Positions 3,175 through 60,472 of a stretch of 64,000 bases of DNA are shown one piece after another. The position numbers and the translations under genes were made by a program. The stretch is from Hymenobacter sp. ISL-91 (GTDB lineage: Bacteria > Bacteroidota > Bacteroidia > Cytophagales > Hymenobacteraceae): positions 38,960 through 102,959 of the forward strand of contig NZ_JAGGPS010000022.1 of the NCBI RefSeq assembly GCF_018613725.1. The letters are read 5' to 3'. The stretch's first letter is position 1; each line of letters starts with the position of its first letter. Below the pieces are notes generated by a model. It saw nothing but the letters and a program-made list of their open reading frames with translations, did no database searches and was not told the DNA's origin.

Positions 3175-3262
3175 CAAGCTACAAGCCCCAAGCTGCAAGT
3201 AGGTTCGACCAAATTCGGACTTCTGCGGCTTGAAGCTTGAAGCTTGAAGCTTGAAGCTTACA
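3175..3262. repeat. paired heptamer arrays (locus 1)
   Basis: Four units CAAGCTA, CAAGCCC, CAAGCTG, CAAGTAG run head to tail at 3175-3202. After 25 bases, four exact GCTTGAA units and GCTTACA fill 3228-3262. The two arrays are inverted relative to each other (CAAGC against GCTTG). The right array ends 2 bases before the ferredoxin ATG. Confidence 0.85.
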
Positions 3263-3264
3263 AC

Positions 3265-3591
3265 ATGACTGACGAAGTACGGGTGTACGTGGAGGAAGCT
3301 CCCGGCCACCGCCGCGAAATAGTGGGCCCCACCGATATGGGGCTGAGTTTGATGGAGCTGATGAAGGCCGATGGCTACGACATTCAGGCCACCTGCGGCG
3401 GAATGGCGCTGTGCGGTACCTGCCACGTAGAGGTGCTGGCCGGCCCCGAACTGCCCGAGCCTTCCGATGATGAGTTGGCCATGCTCGAAAGCTTGCCCAT
3501 CATGACGCAGGGTAGCCGCCTCTCGTGCCAGATTCGCCTTAACCCGCGGATGGACGGGCTGGTGGTGCGCCTGATGCCCCAAGAGTCGTAA
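3265..3591 (+). CDS. [2Fe-2S] ferredoxin
   Basis: A 108-residue plant/adrenodoxin-type ferredoxin. Four cysteines bind the cluster: C44, C50 and C53 in CGGMALCGTC (the C-x5-C-x2-C pattern) and C88 in SRLSCQI. The C-terminal proline-bearing VRLMPQES resembles adrenodoxin-class proteins. It follows the ferredoxin-NADP reductase on the same strand and is presumably its electron carrier. An in-frame ATG at 3244 lies inside the heptamer array and would add only repeat-encoded residues, so the ATG at 3265 was chosen. Confidence 0.93.
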   Translation: MTDEVRVYVEEAPGHRREIVGPTDMGLSLMELMKADGYDIQATCGGMALCGTCHVEVLAGPELPEPSDDELAMLESLPIMTQGSRLSCQIRLNPRMDGLVVRLMPQES

Positions 3592-3604
3592 TATTCGTTG
3601 CCGT

Positions 3605-3652
3605 TATCAAACAGAAAGCCGGCCCTTTGTGGGGCCGGCTTTCTGTTTGATA
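3605..3652. terminator. long-armed terminator hairpin
   Basis: Perfect 21-bp arms (3605-3625 and 3632-3652) enclose a 6-base loop. The core is AAAGCCGGCCC with its complement, ending in a T-rich arm. It closes the FNR-ferredoxin unit. Confidence 0.85.
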
Positions 3653-3740
3653 GCGCAATGCAACATCCTGGTGGGCGTTATGAGGAAACATCAGCATCGG
3701 CGCTTTCTATTGAATTACTATGGCAGCATGTGTTACCCGG

Positions 3741-4601
3741 ATGACAGGTACGACGTTGGCTGTTTTGCTACTCTCGGTTACTGTTCAGGCCCAGCTACGG
3801 CCTCAGGTATCCTTGAGTGCCGGGCCAGCCTATTCGCTAACGGCCATGCAGCGCACAGCGGGCACGCCCAGGGCATTTCGGGTCGACGCCGTTTTCAGAC
3901 TAGCAGGCGAGTTGCGGCTGGCGTGGCCCATAGCCTCCGATTGGGCATTGGAAACCACGATTGGAATTACCGAACTACAGCCCGGTATCAGCTACCAGTT
4001 GCGAAGCGCAAGTAGTAGCGCGGGGTTTGGAATGGGGCCGCTGCTGCAAACAGGCCTGTCGGTGCGTCGCCTTGATTTGCTCATGTTGGGCTCCCGACTC
4101 AGCCTCGATGCCAGCTTAGGAGCCGCAGGAGCCCGGTTGGTTCGTTCCAGCCCTGTTGATAATGTGCATGATTTTTTCGATCAGCGCCAGTCTGCCCCAA
4201 ACCAACTGGTGGTTATCTATCGAAGCCACTCACTGCACCGTAATACCATTTTGCTGAACGGCGACCTGCGCCTACGCTATGAACTGGCAGCCAACCACCA
4301 TCTGCTGCTCAGCCTGGGGTATGCCCAGGGTCTGCGGCCGTTACTGGAGTTGCGCACGCAGCAGCTACTGTACCCCGACGCTAATGGAACGCTCCGGCAA
4401 GGCGGCTTTGCAGTACGCGAACGGGGCTCAAACATAGCGCTACAGCTGGGTTATGGCTGGCTGCTGGGCCGCACCGGTGAACGGGCCACGCCCCATACGC
4501 CCCGCTACGGCAGCGCACCCCAGCAATCCGAAGCACTGACTGAAGCGCAAGAAGCACCTGCTCTTTCGGAACCCCCAACTGATGATACACAGCCCGATTA
4601 G
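3741..4601 (+). CDS. predicted outer-membrane beta-barrel protein, unknown
   Basis: A 286-residue protein with a Sec signal peptide (MTGTTLAVLLLSVTVQA, cleaved before QLRPQ). The mature part has alternating hydrophobic/polar strands with many aromatic and leucine positions (for example LLLSLGYAQGLRPLLELR and NIALQLGYGWLLG), the pattern of a small outer-membrane barrel. The last 40 residues are hydrophilic and acidic (SEALTEAQEAPALSEPP). An alternative ATG at 3720 adds seven residues before the signal peptide. I recognise no named family. It stands alone between two strong terminators. Confidence 0.7.
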   Translation: MTGTTLAVLLLSVTVQAQLRPQVSLSAGPAYSLTAMQRTAGTPRAFRVDAVFRLAGELRLAWPIASDWALETTIGITELQPGISYQLRSASSSAGFGMGPLLQTGLSVRRLDLLMLGSRLSLDASLGAAGARLVRSSPVDNVHDFFDQRQSAPNQLVVIYRSHSLHRNTILLNGDLRLRYELAANHHLLLSLGYAQGLRPLLELRTQQLLYPDANGTLRQGGFAVRERGSNIALQLGYGWLLGRTGERATPHTPRYGSAPQQSEALTEAQEAPALSEPPTDDTQPD

Positions 4602-4630
4602 GCTGTCGGCCCGCATGAGGAGCTAACGCG

Positions 4631-4666
4631 CAACGCCCCGCCCGATTGTTGTCGGGCGGGGCGTTG
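4631..4666. terminator. bidirectional terminator hairpin
   Basis: CAACGCCCCGCCCGA (4631-4645) pairs exactly with 4652-4666. It sits between the convergent genes ending at 4601 and 4694. Confidence 0.75.
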
Positions 4667-4693
4667 GTGGGTTGGGTGGAAACCTACCGGGAT

Positions 4694-5059: not shown

Positions 5060-5094
5060 CGACTTTTCCTTTCTTTCCTTCAGTAAACGAGGGG

Positions 5095-5125
5095 CAAAGG
5101 TACGGCGTCAGGTCGCCAAACTCAA
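5095..5125 (-). promoter_or_regulatory. promoter for the small secreted protein
   Basis: On the minus strand TACCTTTG (5102-5095) is preceded by TTGA with a 19-base spacer, matching the TTTG-N19-TAnnTTTG Bacteroidota layout. The start codon is 36 bases downstream. Confidence 0.6.
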
Positions 5126-5280: not shown

Positions 5281-8200
5281 CTATTTCTGCCCGGCAATGC
5301 TCACCCGCGTACCGGCCGAGTGGGTAGTGAATTCGGGCGCATAGAGGCACTGCAGCTGCGAGAGGCCGCCGCTGAAATTGCCCGCCTGCGCCGCCCGCAA
5401 CCGGTACTCGAAGGTGTGGGTGCCCTTGGGAAAGTAGCTGATGAAAAAGTTGGTGGCCGCGTCGCGGGGATTCTCGTAATAGCCCAGGCCGCTTTGGTAG
5501 CGGTAGCCGCTGGTCTGGCCGATGAGCTCCAGGCCGGCGGCGCGCTGGTCCTTGAGATGCACGTACTCCAGGTCGCGGTCAGCGCGCAGCACCAGGCGCA
5601 CCACCAGCACGTCGCCCACCCGCAGGGGGCTGGCGGGCATGAGGGGCTCCAGCACCGGGCCGGCGGCGGTGCGCTGCTCGCGGTAGAGGCGGCGCTCCAG
5701 CTGCAGGCCGGTGGCGGCGGGCGTTATCTTATCCAGCTGCTCGAAATACTGCCAATACAGCGCCCCCCAGGCCACCCCGGCATCGGGCTTGCGCACCGTT
5801 ACGCGGCCCTGGGCGGGCGTTATTTCGGCGGCGGGCCAGGTTATTTTGTAGTAGCCAGTGCCGGCCTGCTGGCTCGTGGGTTGGGCGGGCTGGCCGCCTA
5901 CTGTTACTACGAGCGGCTCGGTGGCGGGCTTCAGCCAGTCGGAGCCGCGCAGCAGCAGGGCGTAGCAGGCGTCGGCGGTGGCGCGGGTGCTGGCCCAGTT
6001 CTGCACCTGCTTCTGCTTGAGCAACCAGAGCTTCATTTCGTCCACCGATTTCTGGTCGTTTTGGATGTCGTCGTAGGCCTCGATGAGGGTGGCCTGGGTT
6101 TCGGTGGGGGCTTCGCGCCAGTAGTAGCCGGGGCGCACGTCTTTCCAGTACATACCCAGCTCGTCGCTGTGCAGGGCATTTTCGCTGAGCGCGGTCATGA
6201 TTTGGCCCACGGCGGCGGGCTGCGTTTTGGCGCGGTGCAGGGCCAGGGCAGTTTGGGCCTGCAAGTAGCGGGTGCGGCCGGGCCAGTAGGTGGCGGCCTG
6301 CTGCTGGTAGTAGCTTCGGGCCGGCTGAGCCACTTTCGGTACGGCCGGCGCCGGCCAGAAGCTGCGCGCATACAGGGCCTGAATCTGGAGGTCGTTCAGG
6401 TTATCTGCTTTCAAATCGACCTTGGGCTGCTTGCGCAGGCGGGCGTAATCCTGCTGCAGCTCACCATCGAGGTAGGCCAGCGCGTTTTGCAGCAGCGGGC
6501 GGGCCTGCTCATCCTGCGTGGCATCAAAGGCCCCCAGGCGCTGCAGCTTGCCGAAGCCGGCCACGATGAGCTGGGTGATGTAGCGGTCGGCGGGCATCTT
6601 CTCGAACCACGGGAAGGAGCCATCGGGGAGCTGCTGCTGGCGCAGCTTGGCCAGGGCACGGGCGGTTTCGGCTCTCAGACGGGGCTCGTCGAAGAGTTCA
6701 GCGAGACGGCGCATGCGCTCGGTTTCGCTCTGGGCATCGCGCAGCCAGGGTGTTTCCTGCAGCAGCAGGTTTTTGAGTTCCTGGTTCTGCTCCAGCTTGC
6801 TGTTTAGCGCAGTCTGGTCGCCGGCCTGAGCGGCGCGCTGCCACTCGGCCAGGGTAGTTTTCAGGGCCGGGTTGCTGGTGATAATTTTGGCCGCCAGCAG
6901 GTTGGCATATAGGCGGCTAAACACCTGCTCGGAGCACTCGTAGGGGTACTCCATCAGGTAGGGCAGCGCCTGCACGGCGTACCAGGCCGGGTTGGGCGTC
7001 ATTTCCAGCGTGAGCGAGTAGTTGCGCCGGGTGGCCGAGGTAGTACTCGTCAGTTTCTTCAGCTCGAACTCGCGGGTGGCCGGCCCCACAATGGGCAGCG
7101 GCAGGCTCTCGGTGATGAGCAGCCGGTTGGGCAGCACCGGCAGCGTGTTCTGCTCGCCGTCTTCGACAGTTGCTAGTTGCTGGTTGTCAGTTGTTGGTTT
7201 GTTCTGGCGGCGGCGTTGGCGCTTCTCTTTGCCTGACAACTGACTACCAACCAGTGGCAACTGAGCGGAAGCCACCACCTTATAGGTTACGGCCTCGATG
7301 GGCATTTGGCCCTCAGCGGTTTCAGGCAGCGTAATGCTCCAGCTTAACGCCTGGCTTTGGTTGGCTGGCAGGTTGAAGGCGAGCTGGGCCGGGCTTTGCA
7401 GCAAGCGGGCCTCCAGGGGCTGCTGGGTGCGGGCATCGAGCAGGAATAGCTGGGCGGTGCCGGCCAGGGCGTCGGCGGTGAGGTTGCTGAGCTTGGCCTG
7501 GAAGGTAAGCTGGTCGCCCTCGCGGAAGAAGCGTGGGGCGTTGGCCGTGATTTGCAGCTTCTTCTGGGTCACGAGCTCCCGCTGGAGCAGGCCGGTGCGC
7601 AGCTGCTGGTCGTGGGCCAGGGCCAGCAGCTGCCAGCGCGTCACGGCCTCGGGCATCTGGAATTCCAGCACGGTTTCGCCCTGGGCGTTGGTGCGCAGCG
7701 CGGGCAGCCAGAACGCCGTTTCCCGGAAATCGGTGCGGGCCTGCACGTTGCTTAGGTCGGGCCGGGGGGCTGACTGGTCTTGCGCAGCACCGGATTCCTC
7801 TACCTGCACGCCGGCCACTTTCCCAGCAAGCGCGCTGGCCATTGGTGCCGCCATATCGGCCGCCTCAGCATACCCCGCCACGACAACTTCACTAAGCTGC
7901 TTGCTATCAGCATCCATTGCTACATTCATGCGCAAGCTTTTCCTAGTCGAAGCCACCTCTTCTCTGGTGTCTTCTCCCCAAACGCCCCACATAGTCAGGT
8001 GCGGGTATTCTACCTCTTCAGGCGACTCCCCACTAGGCTGATTATCGAACAGCCCCCGCCCTTCTTCCAGCCCAAAACGGCCTTGCCAAGCCAGCGTGGC
8101 AGGAGAATAGGGCTGCGGGAATTCCAGCGGCGTGAAACTATGGGGCCGGAACACATCGAGCGACTTGTCGTAGAGCGTGGCCAGTAGCTCGGCATCGGCT

Positions 8201-11200
8201 GGTTTGCCATCGGTTTGCTTGATGGTAACGCGCCAGGTTTCGCGCTGGCCGGGCTGCAGCTTGTCGCGGAAGGTGGCAATGCTGAGCACCAGTGGCGCAG
8301 GCGGCGTGGCCACCTGCACGGCAGCTGTGTGAAGGTAAAGGCGGTTGTCGCGCACCTGGGTGAGGTGGACGTAGAACTGGGTTTCGCCGAGGGCGACGGG
8401 CACAGGCACTTCCACCACGCGCTGCTCGCCGGCGCCCAGCGTCAGCCACTCGGCGCGCAGGGCTTCGCCCTTGGCCTCGGCCTGCACCAGCACGCGGGCC
8501 CCTGCAAAGGAGCTGCCCACCAGGAAGCGGGCTACGCCGCCCGGTCGGATGCTGTCCTGCAAAGCCACGAACCAATCAGGGCTGGGCACGGGCAGGCGGT
8601 TGGCGGCGGGGTCGAAGAGGGTGAAGAAGTGCTCGGCGCGCGGGGCGGGCTGGCCAGCTTTGGCGGGCGCGGCCGTAGCTTCGAGCCGGTAGCGGCCGGG
8701 TTCCTGGCGAGCCAGCCGGGCGGCCAGTTCGGGCAGTAGCGGCGTTTTATCGGTATCGAAAGCCTGGGTAAGCACCAGCGTGCGGGCCCAGGTGCTGTCG
8801 TTGTCCTCGGCTCCGTAGGCATCGAGCGGGAAGCGGCGGCGGAACTCCTCCGCGCTCAGGGCCTCGCGCTCGGGTCGTGCCCACGGACGAGGTCGGAACG
8901 CCCGGGCGGGCGGCGTGAGGCGGTAGAGGCGCAGCTGCCCCTGGGCGGGCAGGGCCTCGCCGGTGGCGTTGGTGCTGAGCAGGCGCAATTCGGGCAAGTC
9001 GGCCCGGTTTACCAGTTCCGGCACATCCAGGCGCAGCGTCAGGGCCTCGGTGCCAAGGCTGAGGCGCTGCTCCCCGGTGCGGGTTTCGCCGGCCGCGTCG
9101 GTTACATCGGCCGTTACCTCGAACACATAGCCGGGCTCCCAGGAGCCACGCTTGCCACCCGCGGCAGTTTCGCCCGCCTGAGCCACGAACGTGACAGTGA
9201 AGCCGCCCGCCGAATCGGTGCGGGCCGTGCCGGTGGCAATTTCCTGCTCCGGTGCGCCGCCCCCGTAGAAGCCGCGGCCGTAGTAGGGCCAGAACGTGCG
9301 GCGCACCACCCGGTAGTTCACGGCCGCTCCATCTACGGGTTGGCCGGCGTAAGCGGTAGCGGTGCCACGCACCGTTACGGGCTGCCCCAGCACGGGCGTG
9401 CCCGCCACCGGCGCAAACGTCACCTGGAATGTGGGGCGCTTGTAGTCCTCAACGGCGAAGTATACCTCTCCCCCTTCATCCGATTCATCGGCCACCAATG
9501 TCATCTGGCCGTTCAGCAGGCCGGTTGGCAGCACGAAGGAGCCGTGGAAAGAACCGAACTTGTTGGTTTGAAATTCGGCCCGCTGCACGACCTGGCCATT
9601 CACATCATGCAACTCCACGATTTCCTTGAAATTAGCCAGCACCTTTGTCCGGCCCTTCTGCTGCTGCGCAACAATTCCTTTGAAGTAAACCGTTTGCCCG
9701 GGCCGGTAAATGGCGCGGTCGGTGTACAGGAAGGTCCGGCTTTCGGGTTCATCGTTCTCATCCGGCTGGCTGCGGCGCGGACCGTAGTAGCCCATGTTGT
9801 CCGTCATCAGCAACGAGTCTGGGCCCTGCGTGAACAGGGCCGCCCGCAACTGCGTGTTTTCGCCCGTTTTAACGCCAACCGGAATCCGAACTTGCCCCGT
9901 AGTACTGGTGGTCTGGGCCTCGCCGCGCCGCTGCTGGTATTGGCGTTTGGGTTGGTTGTAGAACTGAAAAAACGGCAGCACCCGCACGTCGGCCAGGGGC
10001 GCGCCGGTCTGCCGGTGCAGCACCAGCAGCTCGGGGCCGTCGGCATCGGGGGTGCTACGGCGCAGGTAGCTCAACTGGCTCACCTGCACCTGGCTGGTGG
10101 CCGTAATGGCACCGGGCTGCTCTTTGGTGGGGTTGGCGGGCGCGGTGCTGAGTACGATGAGGTAGTGGCCCAGCGGCAGGGACGGACCGGCCTGCTGCAC
10201 GGTGTGGCTCCGGAAATCGGCCGGACCGGGCACCTCCAGCGTCCAGGCGGCGGCCGGTTTAGCAGCCAGGGTGCGGGCGTAGCGCTGCTGCAGGGTTTTG
10301 TTCTGATATAGCTCCGGCCGCTCCAGCTGCCGGAGCACCTGGGCGCTGCTGAGGCGGTAGGCGGTGGCGTAGAGGCGCGGGGCATTGCGGACCGTCAACT
10401 GCAGCAGCCAGGGCTGGTTTGGCAGCAGCACTTCCTCGGCCGTGAAGCTTAGCTCCACCCGCTCCAGCTGCTGGCGCAGGGCAGCGGCCTGCCGGGCACC
10501 CCGGGTTTTAGGAAACTCTTGCTCTACGGCCAGGGCCAGGGCGTGGGCTTTGGCGGGGTCCTGCTCCTTCCAGGCCGCCGCCTCGGCCGCCCGGAATTCG
10601 GCGGCTATGGGCAAGGCCTGATAGGTGGCAGCAGCCCGGGCCAGGGCGGCGCGGTATAGGGTCTGCTGATTTTCCAGCGCAGCGTGCTGGTTGATGAACT
10701 CCAGACGCTGTAAATCGGCGTCGGCCAGGGCTGTGGGGTTGGCTTTATCGGTCAGGCGGAAAGCCAGCTGCTGTTGCAGCACCCGCAGCGCATGAAACTG
10801 GCCATTGAGCGAGTCGGCGGCCGGGGCTTCCAACGGCAGGCGGACAAACTCGGCGGCGGGGCCAAACAACGCTGGGTTGGTGAGGCGGAACTGCTGAGCA
10901 GGCCGGGTGATATACAGTTCAGCGTTGCTCAACCCGTCCACGGCCCGGAAGGCCAGCAGGTCGAAGAGCGTGGGCCGGCGCTGGCGGCCCTCGGCATCGG
11001 CCCCGCGACTGAGGTAGCCCAGGTCCGTGAGTTTCAACTGCTGCTGACGGCGGGGCTCCTCTTCGGTCGAGGCGCGGTAGTGATTTACCACGGCGGCCCC
11101 GAGGCGGGCGGCGTCCCAGGTGCGCAGGTCGGCGCGGCTCTGGTCGGCCGTGTCGGGGCGGGCAGCGTTGGTGCGGCTGTACAGCTGGTAGCGGTGCTGC

Positions 11201-11580
11201 TGATAGTAGCGGGTGTAGAGTTGGGCCAGCAGGCTGTGCAGCACCGGCCGGGCCGGAAACTGTGCCGTTTCTAAATCTTTCTCCAGCAGCTCAATTCCTT
11301 TTACATCCGCTTCTTCCTCCTTGTTTTCGAGCAGGCGCAGCTTATAGAGCAGCGTGCGCACGTACTCGGGCGCGGCCTGGGGCCGGCGGCGGGCCTGCTG
11401 GTAAAGCGGCGCCAGCAGCCTGGCGGCCGAAGCCGTCTGGCCCTTGGCCAGCAGCTGGTCTATTTTACGCCAGGTGGCCGCGTTCGGGCCGCTATCGGGG
11501 CGGTCAGCGGGGCTGATTTGGGAGGAACCGGGAGTTAGCAGCATCAGCAGGGCCAACAGGCAGAGCAGGAAAGGGCGCAT
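5281..11580 (-). CDS. alpha-2-macroglobulin family protein (MG2 and thioester domains)
   Basis: 2099 residues with a signal peptide (MRPFLLCLLALLMLLTPGSS), so exported to the periplasm or cell surface. The family traps proteases and resembles complement. The MG2 signature RAIYRPGQTVYFKG lies near residue 627. The bait/ANA side follows, with AVTRWQLLALAHD around residue 1340. The thioester motif is intact: C1549-S-E-Q1552 in YPYECSEQ, followed by the alpha-helical thioester domain and a receptor-binding-like beta domain. Two oddities: a short stretch near residue 1227 (QLSEVVVAGYAE ... LAGKVAGVQVEE) copies the plug start of a TonB-dependent receptor, and residues about 1438-1472 (basic, KEKRQRRRQNKP) are encoded by inverted heptamer arrays. 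The frame extends 39 residues upstream, but the ATG at 11580 starts the signal peptide. Confidence 0.92.
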   Translation of the reverse strand: MRPFLLCLLALLMLLTPGSSQISPADRPDSGPNAATWRKIDQLLAKGQTASAARLLAPLYQQARRRPQAAPEYVRTLLYKLRLLENKEEEADVKGIELLEKDLETAQFPARPVLHSLLAQLYTRYYQQHRYQLYSRTNAARPDTADQSRADLRTWDAARLGAAVVNHYRASTEEEPRRQQQLKLTDLGYLSRGADAEGRQRRPTLFDLLAFRAVDGLSNAELYITRPAQQFRLTNPALFGPAAEFVRLPLEAPAADSLNGQFHALRVLQQQLAFRLTDKANPTALADADLQRLEFINQHAALENQQTLYRAALARAAATYQALPIAAEFRAAEAAAWKEQDPAKAHALALAVEQEFPKTRGARQAAALRQQLERVELSFTAEEVLLPNQPWLLQLTVRNAPRLYATAYRLSSAQVLRQLERPELYQNKTLQQRYARTLAAKPAAAWTLEVPGPADFRSHTVQQAGPSLPLGHYLIVLSTAPANPTKEQPGAITATSQVQVSQLSYLRRSTPDADGPELLVLHRQTGAPLADVRVLPFFQFYNQPKRQYQQRRGEAQTTSTTGQVRIPVGVKTGENTQLRAALFTQGPDSLLMTDNMGYYGPRRSQPDENDEPESRTFLYTDRAIYRPGQTVYFKGIVAQQQKGRTKVLANFKEIVELHDVNGQVVQRAEFQTNKFGSFHGSFVLPTGLLNGQMTLVADESDEGGEVYFAVEDYKRPTFQVTFAPVAGTPVLGQPVTVRGTATAYAGQPVDGAAVNYRVVRRTFWPYYGRGFYGGGAPEQEIATGTARTDSAGGFTVTFVAQAGETAAGGKRGSWEPGYVFEVTADVTDAAGETRTGEQRLSLGTEALTLRLDVPELVNRADLPELRLLSTNATGEALPAQGQLRLYRLTPPARAFRPRPWARPEREALSAEEFRRRFPLDAYGAEDNDSTWARTLVLTQAFDTDKTPLLPELAARLARQEPGRYRLEATAAPAKAGQPAPRAEHFFTLFDPAANRLPVPSPDWFVALQDSIRPGGVARFLVGSSFAGARVLVQAEAKGEALRAEWLTLGAGEQRVVEVPVPVALGETQFYVHLTQVRDNRLYLHTAAVQVATPPAPLVLSIATFRDKLQPGQRETWRVTIKQTDGKPADAELLATLYDKSLDVFRPHSFTPLEFPQPYSPATLAWQGRFGLEEGRGLFDNQPSGESPEEVEYPHLTMWGVWGEDTREEVASTRKSLRMNVAMDADSKQLSEVVVAGYAEAADMAAPMASALAGKVAGVQVEESGAAQDQSAPRPDLSNVQARTDFRETAFWLPALRTNAQGETVLEFQMPEAVTRWQLLALAHDQQLRTGLLQRELVTQKKLQITANAPRFFREGDQLTFQAKLSNLTADALAGTAQLFLLDARTQQPLEARLLQSPAQLAFNLPANQSQALSWSITLPETAEGQMPIEAVTYKVVASAQLPLVGSQLSGKEKRQRRRQNKPTTDNQQLATVEDGEQNTLPVLPNRLLITESLPLPIVGPATREFELKKLTSTTSATRRNYSLTLEMTPNPAWYAVQALPYLMEYPYECSEQVFSRLYANLLAAKIITSNPALKTTLAEWQRAAQAGDQTALNSKLEQNQELKNLLLQETPWLRDAQSETERMRRLAELFDEPRLRAETARALAKLRQQQLPDGSFPWFEKMPADRYITQLIVAGFGKLQRLGAFDATQDEQARPLLQNALAYLDGELQQDYARLRKQPKVDLKADNLNDLQIQALYARSFWPAPAVPKVAQPARSYYQQQAATYWPGRTRYLQAQTALALHRAKTQPAAVGQIMTALSENALHSDELGMYWKDVRPGYYWREAPTETQATLIEAYDDIQNDQKSVDEMKLWLLKQKQVQNWASTRATADACYALLLRGSDWLKPATEPLVVTVGGQPAQPTSQQAGTGYYKITWPAAEITPAQGRVTVRKPDAGVAWGALYWQYFEQLDKITPAATGLQLERRLYREQRTAAGPVLEPLMPASPLRVGDVLVVRLVLRADRDLEYVHLKDQRAAGLELIGQTSGYRYQSGLGYYENPRDAATNFFISYFPKGTHTFEYRLRAAQAGNFSGGLSQLQCLYAPEFTTHSAGTRVSIAGQK
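7167..7269. repeat. heptamer arrays inside a coding region (locus 2)
   Basis: Five units CAGTTGC, TAGTTGC, TGGTTGT, CAGTTGT, TGGTTTG occupy 7167-7201. Inverted units GACAACT, GACTACC, AACCAGT, GGCAACT occupy 7235-7262. They lie in frame within the alpha-2-macroglobulin gene and closely resemble the icd-manC array at 37301. Confidence 0.8.
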
Positions 11581-19538: not shown

Positions 19539-19648
19539 GTAGGGGCGGGGCTTGTCCCCGCCCTCCGTTGAACGAGGCATTGAGGAGCCGTTGAACTAGC
19601 GTTTACCGTATCGTTCAGGCGGCGGGCGGGAACAAGCCCCGCCCCTGC
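19539..19648. repeat. GC-rich dispersed palindrome, copy 1
   Basis: Begins GTAGGGGCGGGGCTTGTCC and ends with the near-complement AACAAGCCCCGCCCCTGC. The terminal 25 bases match the copy at 43232-43328; the centre differs apart from a shared CCGTTGAAC/GTTCAC word. Confidence 0.8.
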
Positions 19649-22513: not shown

Positions 22514-23437
22514 TTACCTGCCCGGTATTTTGTACACCTGCACGCCGGCCGCTGTCAGCAGGTAGGCATATTGCTCGCTTACGAGCACCTGCTGCACGCC
22601 GGCCAGCGGCAGCGGCAGGGCGCGTTCGGTGAGGTTGTACAAGTGAAAAAACCGTAGCTCGCCGGCCGGCCCTAAGTAGTAAAGTTCGTCGGAGCGGAAG
22701 CCCACATAGTTCAGGCCCGGCAGCGGCAGCTTCTTGCGAAAGTTGCCCAGGTTATCGAATACGTACACGCCCCCTACCCTATCTACCAGATAGAGGTTGT
22801 TCTGGTACTCACGCAGAAACCGGAAATCGGGCCGCGAGCGGCCAATCAGAATATCAAGCGGCGTGGAAATGGTAAAGCGTTTCTGGGTGGCATCAAACTG
22901 CCGCAGCGTCAGGTCCGACTCGTTGAAGAGCCAGTACCGGTCGTCGGGGGCCAATGTTACCACGCGGGCCTGGCCATCGAGCAGCTGGGGCAGCGGCAGC
23001 TCGCTGATGGGCGACAGAAACCGGTCGAGCAGCAGCACCTGCTGGCGGTCGTCGTAGAAAACCAGCACTTTAGCCGTGTTCCAGGCTTCTACCTGCATCA
23101 CGTGGCCGGGCAACGGCGGGGCATACACGTTCAGAGCCTCCCCTTCGGGCCCATATTGGCGCAGGTTGTTCTGGCGGTCAGTTACATACAGGTTGCCGCG
23201 CCTATCCAGCGAGGCCGCGCCCGGCTGGGGCAGGGCCAAGCTGCGCACCAGCTGCCAGCCCCGGGCGGCACCGGCTGTATCGGGGAGCAGGCGCGCTACC
23301 GGCGCGGCCTGCCCAGCCGGCGCCACCGAGCCCGCCGGGGGCGCAGTGGTTTGGGCGCTGGTGAGAAGTGGTGTTAGAAGTGAGAGATGAGAAATGAGAA
23401 GTGAGACCAGAAGAAAGCGAATAGAAAAAACTGTCAT
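22514..23437 (-). CDS. secreted beta-propeller (NHL-like) protein
   Basis: 307 residues. The mature part has repeated blades such as DRRGNLYVTDRQNNLRQYGPEG and FLREYQNNLYLVDRVGGVYVFDNLGNF, the pattern of NHL/6-bladed propellers, so a secreted binding protein is likely. The signal peptide (MTVFSIRFLLVSLLISHLSL...) is remarkable: its ATG is the outer GTCAT end of the dispersed palindrome at 23432-23530 read in reverse, and its hydrophobic core is translated from the adjacent heptamer array. The frame extends upstream through the palindrome but only as repeat sequence. It follows lpxH by 136 bases. Confidence 0.8.
   Translation of the reverse strand: MTVFSIRFLLVSLLISHLSLLTPLLTSAQTTAPPAGSVAPAGQAAPVARLLPDTAGAARGWQLVRSLALPQPGAASLDRRGNLYVTDRQNNLRQYGPEGEALNVYAPPLPGHVMQVEAWNTAKVLVFYDDRQQVLLLDRFLSPISELPLPQLLDGQARVVTLAPDDRYWLFNESDLTLRQFDATQKRFTISTPLDILIGRSRPDFRFLREYQNNLYLVDRVGGVYVFDNLGNFRKKLPLPGLNYVGFRSDELYYLGPAGELRFFHLYNLTERALPLPLAGVQQVLVSEQYAYLLTAAGVQVYKIPGR
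23361..23409. repeat. heptamer array, left half (locus 3)
   Basis: Seven consecutive 7-base units: GTGAGAA, GTGGTGT, TAGAAGT, GAGAGAT, GAGAAAT, GAGAAGT, GAGACCA. Read on the minus strand they encode the core of the propeller protein's signal peptide. Confidence 0.8.
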
Positions 23438-23530
23438 CCTGAGCAGCGCGCGGGATCTTGTCCCGCGAGCCCAACTAGCAGCGAGTGTTGGGCTCGCGGG
23501 ACAAGATCCCGCGCGCTGATCAGGATGACA
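23432..23530. repeat. GTCATYCTGAG dispersed palindrome, copy 1
   Basis: Arms 23432-23475 and 23487-23530 (44 bp, one mismatch) begin TGTCATCCTGA and end with its complement. The inside (GGGATCTTGTCCCGCGAGCC) is unlike the other copies. Confidence 0.85.
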
Positions 23531-23556: not shown

Positions 23557-23584
23557 TTCTCAGCTTAACCTTCTCACTTCTCAT
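23557..23584. repeat. heptamer array, right half (locus 3)
   Basis: TTCTCAG, CTTAACC, TTCTCAC, TTCTCAT: the inverse of the left half. It supplies the lpxH stop codon (23574-23576) and last codons. Confidence 0.75.
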
Positions 23585-29769: not shown

Positions 29770-29803
29770 TTTTTCGAGTCACCCATCTACAACGAACCAC
29801 CAG

Positions 29804-29832
29804 ACCCTCGCCCCTACCGGCGGGGGTTTTGT
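29804..29832 (+). terminator. terminator
   Basis: ACCCTCGCC (29804-29812) pairs with GGCGGGGGT (29819-29827) through one G-T pair, then a short T run. Confidence 0.5.
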
Positions 29833-29939
29833 GTTTTCGGCTGGTTTGGTTTGCCCGTTGCAGATGAGTGAATCTGGGGGTTGGTTGAAGCGGAGGCGGG
29901 CATTGGTTGATTTAGGCATGCGGCTCGGTACTTATTGGC

Positions 29940-29947
29940 TACTTTTG
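29940..29947 (+). promoter_or_regulatory. -7 element for the DUF2723 gene
   Basis: TACTTTTG matches TAnnTTTG, 68 bases upstream of the ATG at 30016. No good -33 partner seen. Confidence 0.4.
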
Positions 29948-30015
29948 AACTTTCGCTGACTGCTTTCCCGATTTCCCCGCCCTGTTACAAGCGGCGGTCC
30001 TCTCTTTCTACCTAT

Positions 30016-34345: not shown

Positions 34346-35412
34346 CCGAACGCCGCCAGTATTTCGACTCGCAGAACCGCCCGGTGCCCAACCGCCGCAA
34401 CCCGCGCGAAGACCAGGGCCGCGACGGCAGCCGCTCCGACGAGGCCCCGCGCTTCGAGCGCAGCCGCGCCGATGACGGCCGAAACGACGAGCAGTTTGGC
34501 GAGCCCCGCCGCCGCGACGACGAGCAGCGCCCCGAAGGCCGGCGCGACGAAAACCGCCGCGAGGAAGGCCGCTGGAGCGAAGGGGGCAACCGCGAGGAGG
34601 GCCGCCGTCCGGCTTCGTCATCGTCTTCTGACAAGCCCCGCTACCCCCACCTCCCGCCCCAGGACCGCAGCATCGACATGATTTTCGGGTTGCGCCCAAT
34701 TCTGGAGGCGCTGAGCGCGGGCCGTACGCTGGATAAGATATTCCTGCTGCGGGCCACCAAGAACTCCATGACCCAGGACATCAACGCCCTGGCCCGCGAG
34801 GCCAATGTGCCCGTGTCGATGGTGCCGGTAGAAAAGCTGGATAATATCACCCGCAAAAACCACCAGGGCGCGGTGGCCTTCGTGTCGCCGATTGATTACA
34901 TGCCGCTGGACAACATTCTGGCCGGCTTGTACGAGGAAGGCAAAACGCCCCTGCTGCTGGTGCTCGACCGGATTACCGACGTGCGTAACTTCGGCTCCAT
35001 TGCCCGGAACGCTGAGTGTTTGGGTGTGCACGCCATTGTGGTGCCCAGCCACGGCGCGGCCCAGATCAACGGCGACGCGCTCAAAACCTCAGCCGGCGCC
35101 CTTAACCTGATTCCAGTCTGCCGAGAACACAACCTCAAGCAAACCCTCACGTTTCTGCGCGAATCGGGCGTGCAGGTTGTCGCCTGTACCGAGAAGTCGG
35201 ATGCCAGCCTGGAGGCCGAAACCGTAGATTTGACGGGCCCGCTGGCCATTCTGATGGGCTCGGAGGAAGATGGCATCAGCCCCGAGTACCTGCGCCTGGC
35301 CGACTACAAGCTCCGCATCCCAATGGCCGGCCAGATTAGCTCGCTCAACGTGTCGGTGGCCAGCGGCATTATGCTGTATGAAGTGCTGCGGCAGCGGCTG
35401 AAAGGGAATTAA
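34309..35412 (+). CDS. rlmB: 23S rRNA 2-prime-O-methyltransferase, TrmH/RlmB family
   Basis: 367 residues. The SPOUT core (about 122-367) has a substrate-binding L30e-like half (IFGLRPILEALSAG) and the knotted SAM domain with motif 1 DRITDVRNFGSIARNAE, motif 2 ILMGSEEDGIS and motif 3 IPMAGQISSLNVSVASGIMLYE. It methylates a guanosine in 23S rRNA, G2251 by homology. Unusual is a 115-residue N-terminal extension made of Arg, Glu, Asp, Gly, Asn (GRDGSRSDEAPRFERSRADD and the like), evidently disordered. Starting at an internal Met (residue 123) would remove it, but the frame is long and continuous. Overlaps the preceding gene by 37 bases. Confidence 0.9.
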   Translation: MEKRTNRPGRPVTERRQYFDSQNRPVPNRRNPREDQGRDGSRSDEAPRFERSRADDGRNDEQFGEPRRRDDEQRPEGRRDENRREEGRWSEGGNREEGRRPASSSSSDKPRYPHLPPQDRSIDMIFGLRPILEALSAGRTLDKIFLLRATKNSMTQDINALAREANVPVSMVPVEKLDNITRKNHQGAVAFVSPIDYMPLDNILAGLYEEGKTPLLLVLDRITDVRNFGSIARNAECLGVHAIVVPSHGAAQINGDALKTSAGALNLIPVCREHNLKQTLTFLRESGVQVVACTEKSDASLEAETVDLTGPLAILMGSEEDGISPEYLRLADYKLRIPMAGQISSLNVSVASGIMLYEVLRQRLKGN

Positions 35413-35512
35413 AAATTAAAAGTGAAAAATTAAAAATAGCCGTTGAACGACTCCCGGATGGGACGTTCAACGGCCATTTTTAATTTTTCACTTTTAATTT
35501 TTAATTCCCTTT
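35401..35512. repeat. 49-bp inverted repeat of AT-rich heptamers (locus 4)
   Basis: Arms 35401-35449 and 35464-35512 pair with one mismatch. Each arm holds units AATTAAA, AATTAAA, AGTGAAA, AATTAAA. The arms run through the stop codon of rlmB and touch that of the convergent gene, so the whole space is one hairpin that also acts as a terminator. Confidence 0.85.
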
Positions 35513-37297: not shown

Positions 37298-37300
37298 TGC

Positions 37301-37415
37301 TTAGTTGTTAGTGCTTAGTTGCTAGTTGTCAGTGCATAGAAAAGCCCGTTATCTGCTGATTGGATAACGGGCTTTTCTATGCACTGACAACTAGCAACTA
37401 AGCACTAACAACTAA
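37301..37415. repeat. 53-bp perfect inverted repeat of heptamers (locus 5)
   Basis: Arms 37301-37353 and 37363-37415 are exact complements with a 9-base loop. Each arm has heptamers TTAGTTG, TTAGTGC, TTAGTTG, CTAGTTG, TCAGTGC and then a normal terminator stem (AAAAGCCCGTTATC). It fills the gap between the convergent icd and manC, two or three bases from either stop. Confidence 0.92.
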
Positions 37416-38588: not shown

Positions 38589-38707
38589 ACGTCATTCTGA
38601 GCGCAGCGGAGCGTAGTCGAAGAATCTCTACCGTAAAGCTGGTTCTGTCTGTTGCAACGAAGCAGTAGAGATTCTTCGACTACGCTCCGCTGCGCTCAGA
38701 ATGACGT
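38589..38707. repeat. GTCATYCTGAG dispersed palindrome, copy 2
   Basis: Perfect 43-bp arms (38589-38631 and 38665-38707). Begins ACGTCATTCTGAGCGC and contains GAAGAATCTC like copies 3 and 4. It lies between kdsD and manC. Confidence 0.88.
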
Positions 38708-39745: not shown

Positions 39746-39869
39746 TTGGCCGCAGCCGGCCCCGCCGTTTCGCCTGCCCGGCCTCAAATCCCGGTAAAAT
39801 CCTTAGATTGAGGAAGCGGCCCGAAGTAGCCGCTCTATCAGTCTATTAACTAAACAAGCGTACGTGCGG

Positions 39870-42074
<2,205 letters not shown>

Positions 42075-43231: not shown

Positions 43232-43328
43232 CGTAGGGGCGGGGCTTGTCCCCGCCCGCCGTTCACATCATTGAACAAAATCGTTGTAGCGGCGCGAACG
43301 GTGGGCGGAGACAAGCCCCGCCCCTACG
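43232..43328. repeat. GC-rich dispersed palindrome, copy 2
   Basis: Begins CGTAGGGGCGGGGCTTGTCC; arms 43232-43264 and 43296-43328 pair with three mismatches or so. Its ends match the copy at 19539-19648, while the loop does not. Confidence 0.82.
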
Positions 43329-44588: not shown

Positions 44589-44623
44589 CAGCTAACAGCT
44601 ATCAGCTGAAAGCTAACAGCTCA
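44589..44623. repeat. heptamer array (locus 6)
   Basis: Five units CAGCTAA, CAGCTAT, CAGCTGA, AAGCTAA, CAGCTCA. It ends nine bases before the next ATG. No inverted partner is seen nearby. Confidence 0.8.
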
Positions 44624-55778: not shown

Positions 55779-55878
55779 TGTCATTCAGAGCGGAGCGAAG
55801 AATCTCGCTTGCTAAAGTAAACCCTGATGTAGGGAGTTGCTATTGCACGCGAGATTCTTCGCTCCGCTCTGAATGACA
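55779..55878. repeat. GTCATYCTGAG dispersed palindrome, copy 3
   Basis: Exact 30-bp arms (55779-55808, 55849-55878) beginning TGTCATTCAGAGCGG and containing GAAGAATCTCGC. Between the GlmU-like gene and holB. Confidence 0.88.
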
Positions 55879-57107: not shown

Positions 57108-57261
57108 TAAGCTTCAGGTCGCAAGCTACAAGCTGCAAGCTGATAGAGCAAAATGAAGGAGATGGAGAAAAGAATAAACAAAAACTCCCGCTGGCAGGAT
57201 TGCCAGCGGGAGTTTTGAAAACATAAGCTTGCAGCTTGTGGCTTTCGGCTTGCAGCTCTAC
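57108..57261. repeat. inverted heptamer arrays around a terminator (locus 7)
   Basis: Left: TAAGCTT, CAGGTCG, CAAGCTA, CAAGCTG, CAAGCTG, ATAGAGC (57108-57149). Right: GCTTGCA, GCTTGTG, GCTTTCG, GCTTGCA, GCTCTAC (57227-57261). Between them sits the hairpin 57181-57216. The right array supplies the stop codon of the L31 gene. Confidence 0.85.
57181..57216. terminator. terminator inside the heptamer pair
   Basis: Exact 16-bp arms AAAACTCCCGCTGGCA and complement around GGAT; ends the L31 transcript. Confidence 0.8.
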
Positions 57262-58196: not shown

Positions 58197-58205
58197 GTGC
58201 AGCAG

Positions 58206-58276: not shown

Positions 58277-58858
58277 ATGCGCCTCTGTTTCGCCTCCAAC
58301 AACGCTCATAAACTCGACGAAATCAGGCCGCTGCTGCCGGCTACGGTGCAGCTGCTGAGCCTGGCTGCTATTGGCTGTACTGAGGAGTTGCCCGAAACCC
58401 AGGATACGCTCGAAGGCAACGCCCGCCAGAAGGCCCAGTACGTGTGGGACCACTTCGGTGTGGCCTGTTTCGCCGACGACACCGGCCTCGAAGTAACGGC
58501 CCTGGGCGGGGCGCCCGGCGTGTATTCGGCCCGCTATGCCGGCCCGCAGCGCCTGGCCGAAGACAACGTGGCCAAGCTACTACACGAGCTGCGCAACCAC
58601 CCCGACCGTACGGCCCGGTTCCGGACTGTGGTGGCGTTGGTGCTACCCGACGGTACGGTACACGAGTTTGCCGGGGCCGTGGAAGGCCACATCAACCCGG
58701 AGCTGCACGGTACTGGCGGTTTCGGCTACGACCCGGTATTTATTCCGGCCGAGGGCGACGGGCGCACGTTTGCCGAAATGCCGCTAACCGAAAAGAACGG
58801 CCTTAGCCACCGCAGCCGGGCCGTAGCCAAGCTGGTGGCGTTTCTGAATCAGAAGTGA
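58277..58858 (+). CDS. rdgB: non-canonical purine NTP pyrophosphatase (RdgB/HAM1)
   Basis: 193 residues. It hydrolyses ITP, dITP and XTP to monophosphates and keeps them out of DNA. Family signature FASNNAHKLDEI at the N-terminus (substrate phosphate loop), FADDTGLEVTALGGAPGVYSARYAG with the metal aspartates, and GGFGYDPVFIP plus SHRSRAVAKL near the end. Start at 58277 matches family length. Its stop codon sits inside a heptamer array. Confidence 0.95.
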   Translation: MRLCFASNNAHKLDEIRPLLPATVQLLSLAAIGCTEELPETQDTLEGNARQKAQYVWDHFGVACFADDTGLEVTALGGAPGVYSARYAGPQRLAEDNVAKLLHELRNHPDRTARFRTVVALVLPDGTVHEFAGAVEGHINPELHGTGGFGYDPVFIPAEGDGRTFAEMPLTEKNGLSHRSRAVAKLVAFLNQK

Positions 58859-59065
58859 GAAGTGAGAAACGGTACGGCCCCGTTGAGAAAAAAAACTGTC
58901 ATTCTGAGCGAAGCCGGAGGCGAGGTCGAAGAATCTCGCGTGCCATGCTACCCCTATCGTCAGGAATTACTTTGGCACGCGAGATTCTTCAACTACGCCT
59001 CCGGCTTGGCTCAGAATGACGTCTCTTTTCTCACTATCTCATCTTTCATCTCTCACTTCTCACTA
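58853..59065. repeat. heptamer pair enclosing a dispersed palindrome (locus 8)
   Basis: Left: GAAGTGA, GAAGTGA, GAAACGG at 58853-58873. Right: TCACTAT, CTCATCT, TTCATCT, CTCACTT, CTCACTA at 59031-59065, inverted to the left. The palindrome 58898-59020 lies between them. Same build and words as locus 3. Confidence 0.85.
58898..59020. repeat. GTCATYCTGAG dispersed palindrome, copy 4
   Basis: 48-bp arms (58898-58945, 58973-59020) with a few mismatches, beginning GTCATTCTGAGCGAAG and containing GAAGAATCTCGCG. Confidence 0.85.
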
Positions 59066-59071
59066 CTTTTG
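59064..59071 (+). promoter_or_regulatory. -7 element for udk at the edge of a heptamer array
   Basis: TACTTTTG begins inside the last CTCACTA heptamer, 40 bases before the udk ATG, so the repeat may supply part of the promoter. Confidence 0.4.
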
Positions 59072-59110
59072 CAGGGTTGGCCCTGCCGGTACGGGCCTCG
59101 TTTTTCCCTT

Positions 59111-59743
59111 ATGCAACAACCTTTCATCGTCGGTATCACGGGCGGCAGCGCCTCGGGCAAAACCACGTTTCTGCGCCGGCTGCTGGCCTCTTTTCCCGAA
59201 GAAGATATTTGCCTGATTTCGCAGGACAACTATTACCACCCGCGCGAAAACCAGCTGGTCGATGCCCAGGGCGTCACCAACTTCGACCTGCCTACTTCCA
59301 TCGATTCGGCGGCCTACGCGGCCGATGTGCTGCGCATCAGCCAGGGCAAAGAGGTGCGCCGGCCCGAGTACACGTTTAATAACCCCAATGTGGTGGCGGC
59401 TGAACTGGTGTTCCGGCCCGCGCCTATTGTAGTGGTAGAGGGCATTTTTGTGTTCTACTTTGAAGCCGTGGCCCGCCTGCTCGACCTGAAGGTATTCATT
59501 GATGCCCAGGAGCACGTGAAACTGCAGCGCCGCATCATCCGCGACCGGGACGAGCGGGGCTACGACCTGGAGGACGTGCTGTATCGCTACACGCACCATG
59601 TGGCCCCCACCTACGAGAAGTACATTAAGCCCTTCCAGCAGGACGCCGACCTGATTATCCCAAACAACCACCGCTTTGATAAGGGCCTGGAGGTGCTGGT
59701 AGCCTACCTGCGCGGCAAAGTGGTAGCCAGCCGGGCCGAGTAG
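59111..59743 (+). CDS. udk: uridine kinase
   Basis: 210 residues. P-loop GGSASGKT (11-18), substrate loop SQDNYYHPR, PTSIDSA, and the lid RIIRDRDERGYDLEDVLYRY. It phosphorylates uridine and cytidine with ATP or GTP in pyrimidine salvage. The open frame extends 83 codons upstream through the palindrome at 58898-59020, but the ATG at 59111 is the family start. Confidence 0.94.
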   Translation: MQQPFIVGITGGSASGKTTFLRRLLASFPEEDICLISQDNYYHPRENQLVDAQGVTNFDLPTSIDSAAYAADVLRISQGKEVRRPEYTFNNPNVVAAELVFRPAPIVVVEGIFVFYFEAVARLLDLKVFIDAQEHVKLQRRIIRDRDERGYDLEDVLYRYTHHVAPTYEKYIKPFQQDADLIIPNNHRFDKGLEVLVAYLRGKVVASRAE

Positions 59744-59765
59744 CCGGAACAGCTTTTTTGCGAGC

Positions 59766-59792
59766 AGCCCCCGAAAATTTCGGGGGCTTTTT
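59766..59792 (+). terminator. udk terminator
   Basis: AGCCCCCGAAA/TTTCGGGGGCT hairpin (59766-59788) followed by TTTT. Confidence 0.8.
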
Positions 59793-59823
59793 CGTGGATT
59801 TGCGGCAGCAGCGGGCCGGGGCG

Positions 59824-59854
59824 TTGCAGCCGCGAGGTCAAAAACCTATATTTG
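59824..59854 (+). promoter_or_regulatory. promoter upstream of a small membrane protein gene
   Basis: TATATTTG (59847-59854) with TTGC 19 bases before it, a good Bacteroidota-type match. Confidence 0.5.
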
Positions 59855-59873
59855 TAGTTCTTACATCTGTTCT

Positions 59874-60248
59874 GTGCTGCTGCTCACCGCCTTTTTACCG
59901 CGTCTGCGCCTCGCCTTTCTCACCCTAACGGTGCTGATGGTGCTGGGCCTTAACCACCAGTCGGTGGCGACGCTGCGGGTGCTACCAGCAGCCGAAGCGC
60001 CGGCCCGCGCCGCCGTTGCCGGCCGCACCGCCGTGGTAGAAGAGCGCGTGAACCTGGAGGCAACGCCCGTTTTGGTGGCCGAGCTGCCCGCTGTTGCCGA
60101 TGCCTGGCTGCCCGCGCCGCTGTTGCTGCCCACGAGGTCACAATGGCCGGCTTTCGTTCAGACGGTTTCTTCTCCATATCCTGGTCGGCCGGTTGGCCTG
60201 CTGCGGGCCCGGCTGCTGCGCGTGGCCCTCTCACCCCAGGCTCCCTAG
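59874..60248 (+). CDS. small hypothetical protein with hydrophobic N-terminus
   Basis: 124 residues from a GTG codon. A hydrophobic segment (about 8-27, LRLAFLTLTVLMVLGL) would act as a signal anchor; the rest is Ala/Val/Pro/Leu-rich and of low sequence character (PARAAVAGRTAVVEERVNLE). No family recognised. The well-placed promoter supports expression; the composition is typical of fast-evolving small exported proteins, and a shadow frame cannot be wholly excluded. Confidence 0.45.
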   Translation: MLLLTAFLPRLRLAFLTLTVLMVLGLNHQSVATLRVLPAAEAPARAAVAGRTAVVEERVNLEATPVLVAELPAVADAWLPAPLLLPTRSQWPAFVQTVSSPYPGRPVGLLRARLLRVALSPQAP

Positions 60249-60444
60249 CTTCGGCAGGGAAGAAATACGGGCGCTGCCCCGGTTCGCCAAAGCGCACTGA
60301 CAGGCCTCAACTGAGGTAAAACTTCATCCGCGCGCTTTTGGGCATCCTCTTCCCCTGTTTTCCTGCCATCCGGCCACTGCCCGCTATAGTAGTGGGCTGA
60401 GCACGGGGTTTATTTTTTGCTTTCCAGAACCGTAGCCGCATGCC

Positions 60445-60472
60445 AATAGCTGCCGGCTAACAGCTCAACAAA
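60445..60472. repeat. heptamer array (locus 9)
   Basis: AATAGCT, GCCGGCT, AACAGCT, CAACAAA, ending five bases before the secDF start; the words match locus 6. Confidence 0.6.

Follow-up and report, generated by a model that had tools for sequence, protein, structure and literature searches.

What could hold a repeat period at exactly seven while the repeated word itself changes? The question is raised by a 64,000-nucleotide stretch of a Hymenobacter genome (the window, whose own coordinates are used below), where the first-pass annotation had placed arrays of consecutive 7-base units at nine coordinates. Period-7 arrays are evident at eight of the nine by TRF, a lag-7 scan and the sequence itself; that at 60445 is missed by TRF (score 30) and by the lag scan, being a weak AGCTAAC-type array of about three degenerate units (AGCTGCC GGCTAAC AGCT; 60445-60466, minus strand) that precedes the SecDF gene start (60477; Pfam). 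A nearby inverse-complement partner is, as had been reported, present at seven of the nine loci, weakly so at 23370, and was found at neither 44589 nor 60445. The proposal that each locus has its own heptamer does not survive: the nine draw on about five unit families, found again elsewhere in the genome and the genus: CAAGCTN (loci 3170 and 57115), AGTTGNN (7165 and 37301), GAAGTGA (23370 and 58847), AGCTAAC (44589 and 60445) and AATTAAA (35407). Rfam families gave no match in the window at gathering threshold. A T9SS sorting domain accords with a Bacteroidota source.

The CAAGCTN 5′ arm at 3170-3202 (plus strand; lag-7 scan) lies 6 nt downstream of a pyridine-nucleotide oxidoreductase gene (2136-3164; Pfam), and its 3′ partner of GCTTGAA units (3224-3266, minus) reaches the start of a 2Fe-2S ferredoxin gene (ATG at 3265; Pfam Fer2). 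The second CAAGCTN arm (57115-57150, plus) and its partner (57226-57257, minus; lag-7 scan) have a terminator-like hairpin as the core between them, and at this site relative G002 has a similar core with TGCTTAG-type arms. Two pairs lie between convergent genes. One, an AATTAAA arm (35407-35437, plus) with its partner (35476-35506, minus; inverted-repeat search, lag-7 scan), belongs to a 53-nt inverted repeat that is 98% complementary (RNA fold z −17.7); the other, an AGTTGNT arm (37301-37333, plus) with its partner (37383-37415, minus; TRF, inverted-repeat search), belongs to a perfect 53-nt inverted repeat round a terminator-like core (z −21.9), and the arms at this site differ in G004, G008, G016 and G043. 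A GAAGTGA-family arm at 23370-23411 (plus) adjoins the palindrome TGTCATCCTGAGC and has its weak partner at 23570-23584, while that at 58847-58874 (plus) lies outside the palindrome TGTCATTCTGAGCG (58889-59029), its partner (TCTCACTTCTCACT) being at 59035-59067 (minus; inverted-repeat search, lag-7 scan). The single AGCTAAC array (44589-44623, minus) ends 10 nt ahead of a TPR/OmpA gene start; at the orthologous site G043 has ACTACTC-type units, as does G004 in a more degenerate form. For the AGTTGNN arm at 7165-7199 (plus; lag-7 scan, Pfam) and its CAACTNN partner at 7236-7263 (minus; inverted-repeat search) an intergenic location was ruled out, the pair being in frame within an alpha-2-macroglobulin gene (5281-11580, minus), and at the matching place in this linker relatives have, by eye, AGTTG, AATTAAA or GAAGTAA-type arrays.

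The lag-7 excess that the first-pass annotation named as a check on its idea is present in both 464 kb and 1.25 Mb of the genome. In the 1.25 Mb of the present genome (G000; gene calls used, N excluded), 119 intergenic arrays of period 7 compare with 4-16 for periods 4 to 20 except 7 and 14, and the harmonics are prominent (111 at period 14, 38 at period 21). At 18/24 lag matches, the 464 kb gave 48 period-7 arrays, against 2-4 at periods 4, 5, 8, 10, 11 and 13, in a count that includes two masked N runs matching at any period; dinucleotide-model sequence gave none. Among relatives, G016 has 49 period-7 arrays and G075, in stretches partly picked around known arrays, 85, against 1-19 and 0-25 respectively for periods 4-13 other than 7. 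A single decayed repeat sequence does not explain all of the units, though families recur, and the units are not locus-specific in the way first envisaged: among 67 pairs in the 1.25 Mb, 17 are CAAGC, 10 AGTTG, 9 TTAGC and 8 TGAATT. STRR-like short tandem heptamer repeats have one conserved unit per family and occur as single arrays. An excess of tandem, chiefly intergenic 7-nt units is common to both, but here unit spacers vary within arrays while the period stays, and the arrays form convergent pairs, so that single arrays of one conserved unit per family do not describe them.

Facing heptamer pairs occur in some gene gaps of the present bacterium and of most relatives examined. With seven families scanned, 75 of 77 neighbouring array pairs less than 260 bp apart are convergent, two are on the same strand and none is divergent, and both members belong to the same family in all 77. 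The usual polarity of a family is kept in 49/49 pairs in G000, 23/23 in G016, 36/36 in G075 and 7/7 in other relatives, the pattern having been first seen in G000 and a further 18, 12, 28 and 9 pairs, respectively, being unclassified. (Keto-richness was dropped as a universal polarity marker, the left arm being the richer in just 47/67 pairs; G over C was used instead.) Array length is peaked, with 133 of 240 spanning four units, 51 three and 27 five. Ordinary replication slippage of microsatellite-like heptamers, their inverted pairs arising by chance, is highly improbable in the face of such counts. A heptamer excess and the slippage idea have been published (Mrazek 2007, as relayed in the available part of PMC4692102), and long heptamer runs do exist, e.g. 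L025 5953-6023 and L063 812-955, but the pairing and polarity counts already disfavour this explanation, the peaked arm length counts against open slippage, from which decaying lengths are expected, and spacers within the units vary at constant period.

The fit of the arrays to gene borders is tight, with median distances of 2 nt to a stop codon and 8 nt to a start, and a pair leaves a median of 12 nt of its gap uncovered, compared with 154 nt for array-free gaps. The share of gaps with an array is 12.7% among tandem, 9.8% among convergent and 5.8% among divergent ones (stop-bearing versus divergent, p 0.027), five pairs have RNA folds with z from −3.8 to −21.9, and at 29770 and 46676 the place of an ordinary terminator hairpin in relatives is taken by an array palindrome. 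All three features would be anticipated were strong RNA hairpins, as terminators or mRNA 3′-end protectors, alone under selection, with the arms free to drift if paired. However, period 7, fixed polarity and the copies in coding linkers are left unexplained by that proposal, and unpaired single arrays exist (20 rows), making it very unlikely as the sole account.

At orthologous gaps, 17 comparisons have an array in both species, 19 in the present one only, 8 in the relative only and 184 in neither; array presence is conserved (odds ratio 20.6, Fisher p 2e-10, several comparisons sharing one gap), and at control lags no gap has arrays in both. In 11 of the 17 the units agree at 21-26/28 and in the other six they are unrelated (13-16/28). 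The earlier impression of a constant period with a varying unit thus holds for the same gap in different species, and since related species can differ in unit at one site, the old question ‘why seven’ could be tested directly with closer strains. At gap 37298 the stems have 53, 40, 55, 43 and 41 pairs in G000, G008, G016, G043 and G004, with 0-3 mismatches and different arms. By eye, the core is retained between species while the arms differ at 37298, 35413 and 57101, and the linker of a mutase gene likewise has a similar loop between different arms; the linker loop comparison covered both strands of 60 loci, one missing and two genomes counted twice, its 30 genus loci being the best matches to G000 and not a random set.

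Selected binding sites are a further possibility, in which a putative DNA- or RNA-binding protein for each family would read two convergent sites of ~30 nt, the reader switching over time. This would accord with the peak in arm length, the fixed polarity and the pairing within families at variable spacing, and there is precedent in Geobacter metallireducens, where putative regulator sites, most of them in pairs, consist of arrays with 7- or 8-nt units: classes 1 (octanucleotides) and 2 lie on opposite strands at variable distance, 15 of 16 class 3 sites are five tandem heptanucleotides, and IHF/HU-type global regulator sites were proposed for the paired arrays (PMC2700814). Paired 7-nt arrays on opposite strands with variable spacing are equally a feature of the present genome. 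The available part of that account, which treats the arrays as global-regulator sites, is without unit switching, polarity or gap-filling (PMC2700814). Binding sites are nevertheless decidedly unlikely here, given that arms are replaced wholesale between species of about 90% coding identity and that enzyme genes, among them those for a mutase and GcpE/IspG, contain arrays.

In-frame array copies, found within six genes in all, are among the points in favour of mobile palindromic elements of MITE- or REPIN-like type, the arms then being family-specific heptad terminal inverted repeats moved as blocks by a putative enzyme, with families expanding and replacing each other. Discrete families at many loci, abundance that differs by species, and a fixed polarity and same-family pairing of the kind that fits terminal repeats would suit such elements. 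So would a GTTC motif just inside the arms, at 17 versus 2 of 96 ends in G000, 19 versus 3 of 102 in G075 and 6 versus 1 of 26 in other relatives, though hardly in G016 (8 versus 5 of 66). In some gaps, moreover, the array comes with about 100 nt of extra length: 29770 (246 vs 341 nt) and 52691 (49, 42 and 29 vs 157 and 165 nt) resemble growth or insertion. Yet in 13 strict comparisons (an array in one species and a lag-7 score of at most 11/21 in the other) every array-free orthologous gap is longer than 50 nt. The medians there are 136 and 136 nt, with a median difference of 30 nt, the array-bearing gap being the longer in 8 of 13, by 84-382 nt in five of those eight; a looser set of 27 pairs, in which sub-threshold arrays count as array-free, has medians of 126 and 147 nt. 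Cores, in addition, are mostly unrelated from locus to locus and yet can be kept between species under changing arms, and a conserved element core was rejected because 6-mers were weakly enriched across 67 cores. For Y1 (REP-type) transposases there are 3, 1, 3 and 0 hits in G000, G004, G016 and G008, too few for a claim that they track the arrays, and a REP/RAYT link was discarded on these low numbers. Plain transposon insertion is disfavoured, and mobile elements in the broader sense are unlikely, if still a serious contender. Rickettsia palindromic elements, of conserved sequence and tolerated in frame within genes, are insertions; here, by contrast, loop and linker look native.

Tentatively, and with somewhat less than even confidence, the arrays are best read as convergent heptamer hairpins that fill gene gaps, in which template switching at replication, combined with 7-nt slippage, would rewrite the units in situ. 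Facing 7-base arrays that nearly fill certain gaps can form long hairpins. On the replicating strand the earlier-made 5′ arm would fold back and template its 3′ partner, the intervening loop or terminator core would be bypassed and so survive, and slippage would spread single units along an arm. Site and period would then persist while the word changes, since both processes rewrite the unit where it stands. A role for the hairpins as terminator-like borders between genes would follow from the replacement of relatives’ ordinary terminators at the two gaps mentioned above. Elsewhere template switching mends stems and inverts loops, with a possible preference for G-C over C-G pairs (PMC8794818, PMC8604942). 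Mutual mending of arms, loop inversion and the G-C over C-G asymmetry would be points of likeness, but in the available parts of those accounts the hairpins are from microRNA, rRNA and yeast coding repeats, with no periodic arms described (PMC8794818, PMC8604942).

Were the 5′ base always the one kept when pairing is mended, a drift of 5′ arms towards G would be expected, and these arms are indeed rich in G (0.306) and poor in C (0.155), compared with 0.247 and 0.291 in other inverted repeats; the excess of G over C is not universal, being present in 135 of 182 untied elements. T (0.274) and A (0.265) are nearly even in these arms, so that U-A is hardly favoured over A-U. Arms of one locus score 0.67-0.73 with each other and 0.55-0.68 against same-family arms elsewhere, and at 11 of 33 CAAGC loci the arm’s own partner is among the best 10%. 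The suggested homogenisation of units within a site is accordingly only modest: in four of the five families arms of one locus are modestly more alike than arms of different loci, in TGAATT not at all. This tempers the rewriting model, as frequent recopying should give near-identical arms, and a strongly concerted evolution of paired arms, which the scores favour weakly, was set aside. The peaked array length tells against the model as well, open slippage being expected to give decaying lengths, and so do the gaps that resemble growth or insertion. Only one loop appears inverted, between G002 and G006, matching at 11/16 as reverse complement and 6/16 forward over 16 nt only, the shuffle used as control being a rough check that permutes the letters of that one loop.

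Heptamer repeats have so far been explained separately, by G-quadruplexes, regulator sites or translation, in cyanobacteria, Xanthomonas, Geobacter and Beggiatoa. The Xanthomonas arrays, paired and inverted, consist of GGGAATC repeats, in the available part of the account a single G-tract family whose four-unit preference is tied to G-quadruplexes (PMC4692102). Convergent pairs of mainly four units close to gene ends are seen here too. Unlike that case, unit families number at least seven and for the most part lack G-tracts (by eye, none in register in AGCTNNN, AGTTGNN, CAAGCNN and TGAATT units), and the unit differs at some orthologous gaps. Since several families in one genome share a convergent architecture of mostly four units without G-tracts, a unit-specific explanation is insufficient. 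In-frame linker versions point to a mutational process writing protein sequence. A more ambitious scheme, rather unlikely as a whole, is a class of self-templating hairpins with arms akin to exchangeable alleles, in which, at fixed sites in gene gaps and even in linkers of housekeeping enzymes, the 5′ arm would act as master copy for the 3′ one, the word being swapped wholesale between species and G-rich 5′ arms being the fingerprint; the same drive would lie behind bacterial heptamers generally, with protein linkers as a by-product.

The first-pass annotation knew of no described Bacteroidota equivalent, but TAACTGA heptamer arrays, proposed as translational regulator sites, are reported from Beggiatoaceae, Cyanobacteria and five Bacteroidetes (PMC4679880). 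These, as far as the available part of that account goes, are likewise intergenic, with many by start codons and 7-nt indels between close strains, but use one unit in direct arrays (the main genome has 169 direct sets and one indirect; PMC4679880). A literature search, with most subscription papers outside its scope, found no paired heptad arrays in the present group. The occurrence of the same families in many relatives and in other phyla suggests spread or an intrinsic preference, beyond local copying alone. In a family pattern search whose reversed control pattern matched too in some genomes, AGTTG was found in 59 of 120; G101 has 42/44 forward/reverse AGTTG hits and no CAAGC, and G016 has 27/30 forward/reverse CAAGC hits. 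Convergent layout is not a rule for AGTTG arrays elsewhere, only 3 of 80 loci examined (of at least 117 stretches) being paired with another AGTTG array; all three of those pairs are convergent.

Arrays of seven-base units greatly outnumber those of other periods, the excess for which the first-pass annotation had asked. In 464 kb there are 48 at period 7 versus 2-4 for periods 4, 5, 8, 10, 11 and 13 (two masked N runs being counted at every period), and dinucleotide-model sequence, the control to that scan, gave 0 period-7 arrays. With genes called by a simple codon-usage caller (1027 genes, 82% coding), the intergenic arrays in 1.25 Mb numbered 119 at period 7 versus 4-16 at the other periods of 4-20 except 14, and called coding sequence held 39 versus 9-15 for periods 5, 8, 10, 11 and 13. 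Over all intergenic bases, the match fraction is barely raised (0.2723 at lag 7, with lags 6 and 8 giving 0.2689 and 0.2635), so the excess is confined to few places. It recurs in relatives, with 49 period-7 arrays in G016 and 85 in G075; G002, G004, G008, G043 and G068 have 2-7 each (20-180 kb scanned), and the 60 kb scanned of G006 has none at threshold. A period-8 family, GGTGANNT, is present in G016 (e.g. the convergent pair at stretch C8, 69770-69895) and G075, in the same convergent paired layout as the heptads, intergenic period-8 arrays in all numbering 19 and 25, respectively. For the window itself, eight of the nine arrays initially listed were detected by TRF and lag-7 scan, that at 60445 being three degenerate units discerned by eye, and the inverse partners reported for seven loci are present, one of them weak. 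The notion of a private heptamer for each locus has to be given up, as the nine loci share about five unit families.

A typical unit has a tetramer-like core plus two or three variable bases, e.g. AGCTNNN, AGTTGNN, CAAGCNN, TGAATTN, GAAGTGA and GAGTAGT. The scan of seven families gave 240 arrays with three units or more, of which 133 span four units, 51 span three and 27 span five. Array neighbours closer together than 260 bp always share their family (77/77) and, counted without requiring complementarity, 75 such cases are convergent, 2 same-strand and 0 divergent; outside this count, the alpha-2-macroglobulin linker of relative G013 (stretch L142) is by eye mixed, with AATTAAA on the left and AGCAACT on the right. 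Among pairs picked by complementarity, all those classified keep their family's polarity, 49 in the genome under study (G000), 23 in G016, 36 in G075 and 7 in other relatives (18, 12, 28 and 9 being unclassified); as the rule was first seen in G000, the remaining 66 serve as its test. The 5′ arms are rich in G (G 0.306, C 0.155 in 186 elements; with ties left out, 135 of 182 have more G than C), while control inverted repeats remote from arrays in G000 have G 0.247 and C 0.291 (n=130). A GTTC motif just inside the arms occurs in several families (17 vs 2 of 96 ends in G000, 19 vs 3 of 102 in G075) and is weak in G016 (8 vs 5 of 66).

Among G000 gaps of 60-600 bp, arrays are borne by 56/442 tandem, 13/132 convergent and 9/155 divergent ones, at median distances of 2 nt to stops and 8 nt to starts. 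The paired element leaves a median of 12 nt of its gap uncovered in 63 gaps (26 nt where the gap is divergent, n=6), versus 154 nt in array-free gaps. Five window pairs have fold z of -3.8 to -21.9, and the single array at 44589 has -2.3. At 812-955 of stretch L063, divergent genes flank a CAAGCNN array some 20 units long, far above the usual four.

Four-unit preference, convergent pairs, gene-border position and rarity in divergent gaps are all shared with the GGGAATC repeats of Xanthomonas, as portrayed in portions of PMC4692102. For most of the present families, the preference for four units cannot be explained by G-quadruplexes. Excerpts of other reports describe paired octanucleotide and heptanucleotide arrays in Geobacter (PMC2700814) and TAACTGA arrays in five Bacteroidetes (PMC4679880). 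AGTTG arrays were found across many phyla, mostly without an AGTTG partner among the matches listed; within the genus the AGTTG pattern is in 59 and CAAGC in 39 of 120 genomes, with abundance of both differing strongly by species.

Array presence is correlated between species. In 228 comparisons of orthologous gaps (one side measuring 40 bp or more), 17 have arrays in both, 19 in G000 only, 8 in the relative only and 184 in neither (odds ratio 20.6); pooled control lags 5, 8, 10, 11 and 13 gave 0 with arrays on both sides. The G000 unit window finds a best match of 21-26/28 in 11 of the 17 and just 13-16/28 in 6. By eye, gap 3165 has CAAGC arms in both G000 and G016, while G043 and G004 have AGCT-type arms, G068 GGTTNTT, G008 GGAGNTA, and G002 and G006 GAAGTGA. 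In gap 37298, G000, G043 and G004 have a common terminator core yet different arms, and in G008 and G016 both differ, with stems of 40-55 pairs and 0-3 mismatches in all five. At gap 57101 a terminator core persists in five species, four of which have CAAGC arms and one, G002, TGCTTAG arms. At 29770-30015 G000, G004 and G043 retain a terminator, where G016 and G008 instead have a heptad plus TGTCATCCTGAG-type palindrome.

Six pairs fall within open frames, those of alpha-2-macroglobulin, an IcmF-like methylmalonyl-CoA mutase, GcpE/IspG, an M14 peptidase, a D-Ala-D-Ala ligase-like protein and a sulfatase. The mutase linker bears arrays in 16/34 genus rows (15/32 genomes) and 0/25 outgroup rows; its length is 51 nt in 18/25 of the outgroup and 72-186 nt in the genus. 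Linkers with arrays have either AGTTG or AGCT arms, or else a 3′ CAAGCAC/CTAAGCA array, and the loop (e.g. ..CAGAACGACC.. or GAAAACGG..) is similar in linkers with other or no arrays. From by-eye comparison of this short sequence, we read the arms as probably written on either side of a native loop.

Template switching, be it within one strand or from one to the other, reportedly mends stem arms and inverts loops, and mending to the 5′ base would favour G-C over C-G pairs (parts of PMC8794818 and PMC8604942). It would account for arms of a single family, cores that persist, stems that are long and near-perfect, 5′ arms rich in G, and the one inverted loop observed. By itself it does not explain the seven, the peaked arm length or the genus-wide families, and the chief evidence against it is that arms of the same locus are just modestly closer than those of different loci of a family (likeness 0.73/0.63, 0.72/0.64, 0.71/0.66, 0.67/0.68 and 0.71/0.55, respectively). 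Template switching is therefore held as a possible account, somewhat short of an even chance, and a mobile element, though unlikely, is kept. In 13 strict one-sided comparisons from 11 gaps (array in one species, at most 11/21 in the other), the median gap is 136 nt with the array and 136 nt without; it is longer with the array in 8/13, and every array-free gap exceeds 50 nt; these figures leave both probabilities where they were. Growth is clear at some gaps, such as 52691, which is 49 (G000), 29 (G043) and 42 nt (G002) versus 157 (G016) and 165 nt (G004).

RecQ acts on hairpins and in template switching, and a recQ helicase gene (TIGR01389) lies at 39864-42074. At several gaps, the heptad arms enclose a dispersed palindrome (TGTCATTCTGAGCG...GAATCTC or TGTCATCCTGAG...), so that the palindromes are layered (sites at 58889-59029, 38589-38707, 55779-55878 and 23432-23530). 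A second repeated hairpin, GGGGCGGGGCTTGTCCCCGCCC, is at 43232-43328 and 19541-19646.
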